The translations under genes and the position numbers were made by a program. From Cyanobacteria bacterium RU_5_0 (GTDB taxonomy: Bacteria > Cyanobacteriota > Cyanobacteriia > Elainellales > Elainellaceae): DNA of 64,000 nucleotides. The notes beneath the pieces are model-generated. The model made no database searches, was not told the origin of the DNA, and was given only the letters and a program-made list of their open reading frames with translations. The stretch lies in NCBI GenBank assembly GCA_012033255.1, contig JAAUSF010000010.1, positions 1 through 64,000 on the forward strand. The letters run 5' to 3'. Position 1 is the first letter of the stretch. Every line of letters starts with the position of its first letter. This document shows, piece after piece, positions 47,427 through 50,831 of the stretch.

Positions 47427-48656
47427 ATGCTGGACTTACTACTAATCACAAGCTTGGGTTTTCTGGGCAGTTTTGGGCACTGTGTGGGGATGTGCGGTCC
47501 CATTACCGTGGCATTTTCGTTGTCCCAGAAGCAAGAGACTCCGCCGAGTGTATGGCAGCAACTCTGGTTTCATGGGCTGCTTAATCTAGGGCGGATTCTT
47601 AGCTATGCCTTAGTCGGGGCGGGAATTGGCTGGTTGGGGTCGGTACTGATTGCAGGAGGGCAGTTTGCGGGAATTGGCAGTGTTTTACGGCGAGTGATGT
47701 CGCTGCTGGCGGGCGGAATGTTGATTTGGTTTGGGATCACGCAGATTAGTCCGGGATGGTTGCCTAAGATGCCGTTGCTCAATCCGATGGTCAAAGGGGG
47801 ATTGCACGATCGCCTCAGTCAGGCTATGGTGAATCTTTCGTTCCAACGTTACTGGTGGACACCAGCCCTGCTAGGCATGGCATGGGGGCTGATCCCATGT
47901 GGCTTTTTATATGCGGCTCAGATTAAGGCGGCAGAAACCGGGGATGGGTGGAAGGGCAGTTTGACAATGCTGGCATTCGGATTGGGTACATTGCCGATGA
48001 TGTTAGGCGTTGGCATGTCTACGGCATGGCTCAGTCGCGATCGTCGCAGTCAACTGTTTCGGATGGGCGGCTGGATAACCTTGGCGATCGGCATGCTCAC
48101 CGTGCTGCGAACCGGAAACACAATGGTAGACTACACCGGACATGCTGCCTTGATCGGTTTAATCTTGGCGTTGATTGCTCGTCCGATTGGTCGCTTATGG
48201 GCGGCTCCGCTTCGCTATCGTCGAGGATTAGGAGTAGGCGCGTTCGTGCTTGCTCTGGCTCATACAGTACACATGATCGAGCATACCTGGGGATGGAACC
48301 TGCACGCTCTCGTCTTTATGCTGCCTCAGCATCAGTGGGGAATTTGGTTCGGAGTCGTGGGACTGCTACTGATGGCTCCGGCTGCTTTCACTAGCTTTGA
48401 TTGGGCACAGCAGCGATTAGGGCGACGATGGCGATCGATTCATCTTTTGGCAATTCCAGCCCTGATCTTATGTGCCGTTCATGCCGTCTTGATTGGGTCA
48501 CATTATCTAGGGCGATTGCAGTTGAATATGTGGAATTGGGGACAAACGATCGCGTTAGGCATCGGGGTTCTGGGCGTATTATTGATGCGCTCACATTGGA
48601 TATGGTCTTGGTTGGCGCTGGAGAAATTTTATGTTCCACCGAATCAAAAAAAATAG
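47427..48656 (+). CDS. SafE/UreH-like exporter domain fused to ferric-reductase-like membrane domain
   Basis: 409 residues from the ATG at 47427; longer frames include only repeat sequence. N-terminal half: LGFLGSFGHCVGMCGPITVAF, a SafE/UreH-type signature, and WGLIPCGFLYAAQIKA with a CxxC-like GMCGP/PCG pair in membrane helices. C-terminal half: about five more helices with paired His (LAHTVHMIEHTWGW, WNLHALVF, IHLLAIPALILCAVHAV), as in haem-binding ferric-reductase-like domains. This suggests transfer of electrons or metal across the membrane. It overlaps the next gene by 26 bp. Fused forms occur in other cyanobacteria as far as I recall. Confidence 0.8.
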   Translation: MLDLLLITSLGFLGSFGHCVGMCGPITVAFSLSQKQETPPSVWQQLWFHGLLNLGRILSYALVGAGIGWLGSVLIAGGQFAGIGSVLRRVMSLLAGGMLIWFGITQISPGWLPKMPLLNPMVKGGLHDRLSQAMVNLSFQRYWWTPALLGMAWGLIPCGFLYAAQIKAAETGDGWKGSLTMLAFGLGTLPMMLGVGMSTAWLSRDRRSQLFRMGGWITLAIGMLTVLRTGNTMVDYTGHAALIGLILALIARPIGRLWAAPLRYRRGLGVGAFVLALAHTVHMIEHTWGWNLHALVFMLPQHQWGIWFGVVGLLLMAPAAFTSFDWAQQRLGRRWRSIHLLAIPALILCAVHAVLIGSHYLGRLQLNMWNWGQTIALGIGVLGVLLMRSHWIWSWLALEKFYVPPNQKK

Positions 48657-49277
48657 GCGGCTCAGGTTCAGTTTCAGTTGGATGGTGATGCTGATTCTAC
48701 TCGTGGCTCCCGCGATCGCTCACCAAGTTGAAATTGCCGGTGAGGTAGGTGGCACTGTTCATATTGAACCCAACGACACCCCTCAAGCTGGAGAGCCTAG
48801 CCTCACCTGGTTTGCCTTAACTCGTCAAGGTGGCGAACTGATTCCACTCGCCGCGTGTGATTGTCAGTTGGCGGTCTATGCCCAACCTCATTCAATGATA
48901 CGCCTCCGGTTCAGGAGCCTCCCTTAAGGGCAGTGTCCGCCGAGGGATATGACGGGATTCCAGGCGCAGACATTACCTTCCCACAGGTTGGAGCGTATGA
49001 ACTGGTGCTGCGAGGTCAACCCATTCCCCCAGAGGAGTTTCAGCCGTTTGATCTGAGGTTTTCCATCACCGTAGCCGCAGGACAAGGACAGCGATCACCA
49101 AGTCCCCAGATTGAAACGATCGAATCGCCTTCACCAGCCGCGATCGAGTCTCCACAGCCTGACCCGACTCAACCTGAACGATCCTCTGGGCTAGCCTGGA
49201 TTGTTCTGTCCATTTCTCTAGTGGCGAGCATTGCCATTGGGGTGTTGTTGCGATCGATTAAGGTGAGGCGGAAGTAG
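48631..49277 (+). pseudogene. secreted membrane-anchored partner of the SafE fusion, frameshifted
   Basis: The first frame (48631-48927) gives a signal peptide (MVMLILLVAPAIA) and HQVEIAGEVGGTVHIEPNDT ... LAVYAQPHS. The continuation NDTPPVQEPPLRAVSAEGYD ... ITFPQVGAYELVLRGQP ends at 49277 in another frame, with a C-terminal membrane helix (LAWIVLSISLVASIAIGVLL). The junction is at CATTCAATGAT (about 48890-48900); restoring one A (TTCAAATGAT) yields a single 215-residue protein. It is either a real recent mutation or a sequencing error. A periplasmic metal-binding or accessory role is inferred from the neighbour only. Confidence 0.78.
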
Positions 49278-49331: not shown

Positions 49332-50831
49332 TTAATCCTTGAAATCAGGTGCTTTGAAATCTGGCGCAATATGGTTTGTGGCTGGGACAGGTTGAGTCAG
49401 ATAGCCAGAGATCCACGCTAAGGTCACACCAATCCCAAATCCGACGATCGGTACCACGAGCTTGAGCCGTTTACGCAAGTGATCCTGGGAAAGTGGCGAG
49501 TTTAGCTCAGCGAGGGCTTGTTGTTCGATCGCCCGAACATTACTCTCACTCAAATTGAAGCTGAGGGCCTCCTGGTTTAACGATTCTCGGACAGCATCCG
49601 GGAGGGGATAGCGTTGACGAACGGCTCGGATGAAGCGATCGTGATATTGATTCCAGTTAGCTTGATGAGTTTTGATAATTCGGCTTTGGATCAAGTGAGC
49701 CACTTGGATATCTAATGATTGACTGGCAGACATTTGATCGAGTTGCTGTTGAGTCTCTTGACGGAGTGGAAATTGTTGCCAAACCGCTTGGATCACTCGA
49801 TTTCGGTAAGCCTGGACAGAATTTTGATAGCTTCGGCAAAGGGTGTCTCGAATCAAATTAGCCAGATCCGAGCGAATGTTGAGAGTTTGAGTGCAATGCT
49901 GGAGAGACTCTCGAAAGTCTTGCACGGAAACGCGATCGTCATTGCTCGACAAATAGTGTTTGCTGAGGCAGTCAAGACACACTTCTTCATACTGCTGGAT
50001 CTTGCGGCTGTAAGTGTTGGTCACTTCCGTTTTGATCTGTTCAATAGCGGTATCGCTGAGGCGAGGAGGGGATTGCAATTGGCGGATTCGTTGACACTCT
50101 TCATCGCTAATGCGATCGGCCTTGTGAATAAGCATCGTCAGTATTGTTTCAAATTCTTGCTTTTTGTGTTGATAGGCTGTCAAAACGCTGCGCTTGATTC
50201 GCAAGACAATATCCATATTGAGTGGAATAGAGTGTTGATTCTGCTGTATCCACTGCCAATCTGCATCTGTAAGAAAAATTTCTTGATAAGCAAATTGAGT
50301 AATAATCTGTTCAATTTGCTGTTTTTTCTGCTGATAGGTAGCGATCACTTGTTGCTTGATTTCAGCAATGACCTTTTGATTCAGATAGGGTAACTCTTGC
50401 CATTCCCGCATCCACTGACAGTCATCTTCACCCAGGCGATCCTGTTGGTGTAGCAACCCCGTAATCGCTTGCTTAAACTGTTGCTTTTTGTAGAGATATT
50501 TCATAGCAACGTTAATCTCAATCTGCGCCACAACCACGGTAGCCAGGTGGGGGTGAGGCTGCGATCGGCGAATCCGTTGACTATCCTCTTCGGTCAGGCA
50601 ATCCCGTTGATGCAATTGATTGGTAATCGCTTGCTCAAACTTTTGCTTCTTCTGTTCGTAGGCTTCAATCACTTGTTGCTGACAAAACAGAGCCATCTCG
50701 TCATTCAACTGTAGCGCCTGCTGAAGCCGATTCAACTCCTCGCGAACCTCACCTCCTAACCCATCAAGTTGATAAATTAGTTCGGTGAGCCTATCCTCAT
50801 ACTGTTGAAGTTTCAAAGCGTAAAGCGACAT
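49332..50831 (-). CDS. tail-anchored protein of ~60-residue helical repeats
   Basis: 499 residues. From about 50 to 300 there are four or five units with the pattern YQQKKQxFExxITxLxHQxD, LxxxDxQxIRQxQ, then xPxLxxxxVxxIKxxV. Two or three more divergent units (YRNRVIQAVWQQFPLRQE; YHDRFIRAVRQRYPLPDAVRESL) reach residue 450. A single hydrophobic segment (LVVPIVGFGIGVTLAWISGYL) near the C-terminus would anchor it, leaving the repeats in the cytoplasm. The PL..xVRxxL pattern is known to me from regions of cyanobacterial kinases and stress proteins, but I cannot name a family. It stands alone. Confidence 0.75.
   Translation of the reverse strand: MSLYALKLQQYEDRLTELIYQLDGLGGEVREELNRLQQALQLNDEMALFCQQQVIEAYEQKKQKFEQAITNQLHQRDCLTEEDSQRIRRSQPHPHLATVVVAQIEINVAMKYLYKKQQFKQAITGLLHQQDRLGEDDCQWMREWQELPYLNQKVIAEIKQQVIATYQQKKQQIEQIITQFAYQEIFLTDADWQWIQQNQHSIPLNMDIVLRIKRSVLTAYQHKKQEFETILTMLIHKADRISDEECQRIRQLQSPPRLSDTAIEQIKTEVTNTYSRKIQQYEEVCLDCLSKHYLSSNDDRVSVQDFRESLQHCTQTLNIRSDLANLIRDTLCRSYQNSVQAYRNRVIQAVWQQFPLRQETQQQLDQMSASQSLDIQVAHLIQSRIIKTHQANWNQYHDRFIRAVRQRYPLPDAVRESLNQEALSFNLSESNVRAIEQQALAELNSPLSQDHLRKRLKLVVPIVGFGIGVTLAWISGYLTQPVPATNHIAPDFKAPDFKD

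Follow-up and report, generated by a model that had tools for sequence, protein, structure and literature searches.

The minus strand of the window (that is, of the whole 64,000-nucleotide stretch of DNA analysed) contains an open reading frame for a protein, hereafter the window protein, which is predicted to consist of a tandem array of helical units and a membrane helix:

49332..50831, minus strand: open reading frame of 499 amino acids with an ATG start, encoding eight predicted helical units followed by a predicted C-terminal transmembrane helix
50673..50813, minus strand: unit 1, residues 7–53, by the unit profile
50517..50651, minus strand: unit 2, residues 61–105, by the unit profile
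50349..50489, minus strand: unit 3, residues 115–161, by the unit profile
50193..50327, minus strand: unit 4, residues 169–213, by the unit profile
50025..50165, minus strand: unit 5, residues 223–269, by the unit profile
49842..50003, minus strand: unit 6, divergent, with a 7-residue insertion, residues 277–330 (277–311 covered by the profile, the rest by alignment)
49683..49820, minus strand: unit 7, divergent, residues 338–383 (340–383 covered by the profile)
49518..49658, minus strand: unit 8, with YPLPDAVRESL, residues 392–438, by the unit profile (pLDDT 96 in the model of the units 7–8 tile)
49392..49466, minus strand: transmembrane helix predicted from hydropathy, residues 456–480, preceded by RKRLK
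49335..49391, minus strand: short C-terminal tail, residues 481–499, with APDFKAPDFKD, by sequence (model pLDDT <50 from residue 459)

The repeat is real: self-comparison of the protein by offset, a check proposed in the preliminary description, gives a main peak at 54 residues (z 14.0) and a secondary one at 108 (z 10.8), as compared with a maximum z of 4.6 over all offsets in 200 shuffles, and the profile delimits eight tandem units. Of the initial estimate, namely a ~60-residue unit occurring at least four times plus two or three divergent copies, the repetition stands, whereas the period is corrected to 54 residues and the total to eight. The four copies said to share Y..KKQ.FE..I..L.HQ.D are units 2–5, pairwise 30–45% identical, and the divergent ones are units 6–8, the last of which bears the YPL..AVRESL pattern; unit 1 is a more distant relative of units 2–5 (23–31% identity).

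A single C-terminal helix had been credited with anchoring the protein, and indeed residues 456–480 are the only strongly hydrophobic stretch of the 499, with a Kyte-Doolittle 19-mer mean of 2.0 versus 1.2 for the next best (before residue 430). As in tail-anchored proteins, one predicted helix lies ≤~50 residues from the C-terminus and other hydrophobic segments are lacking. Because the net charge ahead of this helix is +3, the repeats are predicted to face the cytosol.

Distribution and partners of the repeat

None of the models in Pfam, NCBIfam or PADLOC names the units of the window protein, the best Pfam E-value being 0.066, and a search of the PDB sequences returned sub-threshold helical matches only; the PADLOC CARF+PIN model scores E 1.8e-4 and 19 bits over residues 160–234. 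Up to E 10, neither the caspase models PF00656 and NF047832 nor any Pfam HEAT model is found in the protein, and the caspase domain is not present. A mobile-element origin was considered and rejected, plasmid and phage searches with the window protein having yielded no match.

The family to which the units belong was reached by profile. A profile started from three caspase-linked units, with the window protein excluded throughout, recognizes seven domains in the latter (84.7 bits, E 2e-28), the best of 1000 shuffles reaching 8.9 bits, and the wide search with an HMM of the units that had been suggested at the outset collected, upon iteration, 131 units (E <0.01) in 25 ORFs, the window ORF being one of them. 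At the level of the phylum, 32 of 194 genomes contain the repeat according to a two-unit profile (E ≤1e-5); at that of the class, 88 of 388 do so according to a profile made from the 54-residue type (E ≤1e-8). The whole window protein, used as query, is matched over part of its length in 18 of 98 relatives (E ≤1e-3) and in 10 of the 388 class genomes (E ≤1e-6), its own genome being counted in both cases; those read are mostly longer proteins having a caspase domain ahead of the array. No ortholog was found among the 98 relatives and 388 class genomes, where the matches, as far as read, arise through caspase-type arrays, nor was one confirmed in an all-species contig scan with the single window protein. 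Of the 40 loci retrieved by the all-species contig scan, 38 have cyanobacterial titles and the other two are metagenome bins. These two repeat-caspase genes lie on contigs of gammaproteobacterial bins (L041, Methylobacter; L073, Tatlockia) and encode proteins resembling cyanobacterial ones; both contigs may be misbinned, and for L073 this seems likely because of its close resemblance to the Aliterella locus L066. Spread beyond the cyanobacteria was rejected accordingly. Judging from sequence, we are dealing with a real and widespread repeat that the family libraries searched do not contain, and the window protein represents a new, solitary, membrane-anchored form of it.

Elsewhere the units, 1 to 12 per array, occupy the stretch between a catalytic N-terminus (a caspase or, less often, a Ser/Thr kinase) and variable C-terminal modules. 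Peptidase_C14 exceeds the Pfam cut-off in eight of ten relatives scanned, being absent from L005 and L016, and the C-terminal modules in the same ten are GUN4 (two proteins), FGE-sulfatase, PBP_like_2, Peripla_BP_6 and TPR (one each). The NCBIfam EACC1-associated caspase type is above cut-off in five of the ten and below it in four; L005, the TPR protein, matches the NCBIfam caspase model below cut-off only, and L016 matches neither caspase model. Further arrays follow kinase-like motifs, one of them confirmed as Pkinase with WD40. Three other proteins in the window's own genome bear units, namely those on contigs C229 (with a caspase), C10 (with GUN4) and C209 (with short units and GUN4); Peptidase_C14 occurs at ten places in this genome, and the unit profile matches the one on C229 alone. 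Directly before the C229 caspase-repeat gene, where EACC1 would be expected, lies a 124-residue ORF (L030:2580-2951, minus strand) that no NCBIfam model matches.

The closest known counterparts are the arrays of cyanobacterial orthocaspases (NF047832, EACC1-associated caspase; PF00656), in which the unit is by profile the same as that of the window protein, occurs in tandem and in several cases is followed by a transmembrane helix; the window protein differs in having neither caspase nor C-terminal module, and its units span 54 residues as opposed to mostly 57–61 in EACC1-type arrays. Parts of two earlier accounts mention superstructure-forming repeats in general terms and do not describe the present one (PMC8195603, PMC7159879), and domain surveys, in the portions consulted, leave the repeat region of caspases and GUN4 proteins blank (PMC8283722, PMC3501461). 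The filler of many of these cyanobacterial proteins is now identified. The initial suggestion of a new interaction module is plausible as regards interaction, whereas the module is not private to the window protein, the array serving as connector in many cyanobacterial caspases, some Ser/Thr kinases and GUN4 proteins.

A recurring arrangement is the split of such systems into a caspase-repeat gene and a second gene that usually encodes repeats and a transmembrane helix. In six loci (L115, L116, L117, L118, L066 and L073), chosen for display on account of their split appearance and hence no measure of frequency, an out-of-frame ORF comes after a repeat ORF and overlaps it by ~17–56 nt, as calculated from the coordinates between the first ATG of the second ORF and the end of the first ORF's stop codon. 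The caspase is evident in four of the six (by Pfam in L066, L073 and L116, the last being the same locus as L017; by motif only in L117), whereas in L115 and L118 it falls outside the contig. Units are present in the second ORF of five of the six loci and a hydrophobic helix above the hydropathy threshold in that of four, this cut-off missing the helix in L073 and L117. In L119 a caspase-type start, four units and a transmembrane helix are fused in one ORF. The overlaps L066:3363-3409, L073:4636-4685, L117:6696-6748 and L116:4495-4550 measure ~50 nt and, in L066, L073 and L117, split a repeat unit; both products could arise from translational coupling or frameshifting.

Passages of Kaur et al. 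(2021; PMC8195603) describe neighbourhoods of EACC2-caspases with an ECF sigma factor and DUF1822. The DUF1822 genes upstream of three of the split caspase-repeat genes (3/3 scanned match PF08852) fit such systems, as does an array spacing of ~54 residues, like that of the window protein; the ECF sigma factor is less well supported, since of three ORFs scanned upstream a single one gives a weak match, at E 0.0027. Unlike in the EACC2 group, none of these genes was found adjoining the window gene: no EACC1, DUF1822 or sigma gene was detected nearby (three ORFs scanned in Pfam and six in NCBIfam, one being shared), the unit profiles find no second array in the 64 kb, and the gene has neither a caspase gene nor a repeat gene next to it. 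The adjacent ORFs that were scanned either encode unrelated proteins (CpeS, an oxidoreductase and a TauE/MsrQ-like membrane protein) or match nothing. The window gene looks like the second, membrane half of the split systems, standing alone.

Predicted fold and similarity to Tic110

Structure prediction, likewise among the checks first proposed, gives a confident all-helical array: for the full-length protein the AlphaFold2 model, made with 24 aligned rows, reaches a mean pLDDT of 82.2 and a pTM of 0.52 and displays helices of ~32 residues, common to neighbouring units, alternating with helices of 9–14 residues, and units 7–8 alone (40 rows) are modelled with pLDDT 96.1 and pTM 0.81. Foldseek returned nothing at E 0.001 or better for either the whole model or the tile. 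The fold list of the whole array is headed by cullins and also includes a TerB protein and an FF-domain tandem, HEAT-like scaffolds obtaining middling scores only; the Z values of array and tile alike are in the tool's "common arrangement" range. The best fold match of units 7–8 is the ENT domain 5zx1, a eukaryotic chromatin domain (Foldseek probability 0.89, rmsd 1.6 over 61 columns, E 3.8; VIA Z 9.9 with 81 residues aligned and rmsd 5.0, a Z below the trusted level for helical bundles); 5zx1, unlike the present protein, is not a tandem array.

A known protein was reached through a shorter subtype of the repeat, represented by the first unit after the caspase. The C209 protein of the window's own genome (L148:967-2607, plus strand; 546 residues) has seven short units of 44–49 residues before its GUN4 domain. 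Its array matches the Pfam model of Tic110 (PF16940) with 38.8 bits (cut-off 27) and E 5.8e-10, the reversed array and four shuffles giving no match, and when the short-unit profile was run against 177635 PDB sequences, Tic110 of C. merolae (4bm5) came first with E 7.4e-4, the next match having E 0.25. In hhalign comparisons, long-only and short-only units align with a probability of 97.2 (reversed, 1.4) and the short units align with the 4bm5 fragment at 92.6 (reversed, 0.2); for the long units against this fragment hhalign gives 15.5 and HMMER 15.3 bits, a score as high being reached by 0 of 2000 shuffles. Thus the preliminary statement that the repeat cannot be named holds for the window units, which no Pfam or NCBIfam repeat matches; only the short subtype exceeds a Pfam cut-off, that of Tic110.

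A direct link between the window protein and Tic110 was dropped as not significant: PF16940 is unlisted for the window protein up to E 10, 4bm5 is missed in the PDB by both long-unit profiles, A1 and A5, and the short-unit profiles score the window protein without significance. Nor does 4bm5 appear among the matches listed when the whole model and the tile were compared by fold. The Pfam tile scan was discarded as sole evidence, since 6 of 40 two-unit tiles match Tic110 at E ≤1 (best 4.1e-5), with Apolipoprotein, MHB and Nas2_N doing at least as well. Across the class, PF16940 is found in 3 of 194 genomes at E ≤1e-3 and passes its cut-off in one, the window's own; none of 14 named control genomes matches at E ≤1e-3, and in a looser search 4 of the 14 match at E ≤1, none above cut-off. 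For the short subtype the link to Tic110 appears good; the window units are connected to it only transitively, via that subtype.

Tic110, whose Pfam model and PDB sequence the short subtype matches, is portrayed in parts of its structural description as a membrane-anchored rod of helical repeats and a proposed scaffold, and Dali neighbours named there include cullins and Nup107 (PMC3823011); it is also cullins that head the fold list of the window array. The differences are that two N-terminal transmembrane helices precede the repeats in Tic110 whereas the window protein has a single predicted helix at its C-terminus, and that Tic110 acts in plastid protein import. 

A proposed membrane scaffold and its alternatives

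The reading to which we incline by a modest degree is that the window protein is a membrane-tethered scaffold gathering repeat-bearing partners. The eight 54-residue units would build up an elongated rod at the cytosolic side of the membrane, in which the single C-terminal helix would fix it; the rod would bind other proteins having the same repeat, or a ligand shared with them, and caspase or GUN4 proteins would thereby be held at the membrane. GUN4 is a tetrapyrrole-binding sensor. An encounter of repeat-bearing proteins at the membrane is suggested because the repeat is the part common, within one genome, to a protease, GUN4 proteins and the membrane-anchored window protein, and because anchor and protease are adjacent or fused elsewhere. 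A testable rule is hereby offered, namely that repeat-bearing proteins should meet at the membrane.

The solitary position of the gene, with no ortholog found in the genomes searched and no adjacent caspase, and the strong divergence of its units would also suit a relic. The protein would then be what remains, on the membrane side, of a caspase-repeat system whose other half has been lost, and would now be drifting or a mere spacer; we consider this improbable, as the frame of 1.5 kb is uninterrupted, each of the eight units can still be recognized and the genome has kept three other repeat proteins. An equally small chance is given to a spacing role, in which the array, as a rigid stalk or ruler, would keep an unrelated partner at a set distance from the membrane and the repeats would not bind one another: the long shared helices of the model would yield a rod and array length varies widely among the proteins, but the window protein, made of units and anchor only, has no terminal domain to be kept at a distance. 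A nucleic-acid-binding role akin to that of sigma-70 region 4 is very hard to credit. The RpoD C-terminal NCBIfam model does match residues 343–454 (E 0.0014) and PDB 1tty gives a weak match (E 0.024), but the sigma-model scores are far below their cut-offs (18.3 bits vs 354 for RpoD; 14.6 vs 24.1 for Sigma70_r4), the long shared helices of the predicted array do not seem to be arranged as helix-turn-helix, and the fold-search lists of the array are headed by cullin and nuclear-pore scaffolds.

The membrane-scaffold reading can be extended, more tentatively and with the odds somewhat against it, to the origin of a plastid import component: the repeat may be the cyanobacterial source of the Tic110 rod, a module tying caspases and GUN4 proteins together, sometimes at the membrane, that was recruited as an import scaffold, the window protein being a free-living, membrane-anchored form of it. 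We know of no accepted cyanobacterial homolog of Tic110, and in the portions of the literature searched no paper was recognized as naming one. If the proposal is true, Tic110 gains a possible cyanobacterial source and this plastid import component a concrete prokaryotic candidate for its origin.

A minor observation concerns positions 48631-49277 of the plus strand of the window, where ORFs 48631-48927 and 48861-49277 overlap and look as if a frameshift or a sequence error had interrupted a single membrane protein.
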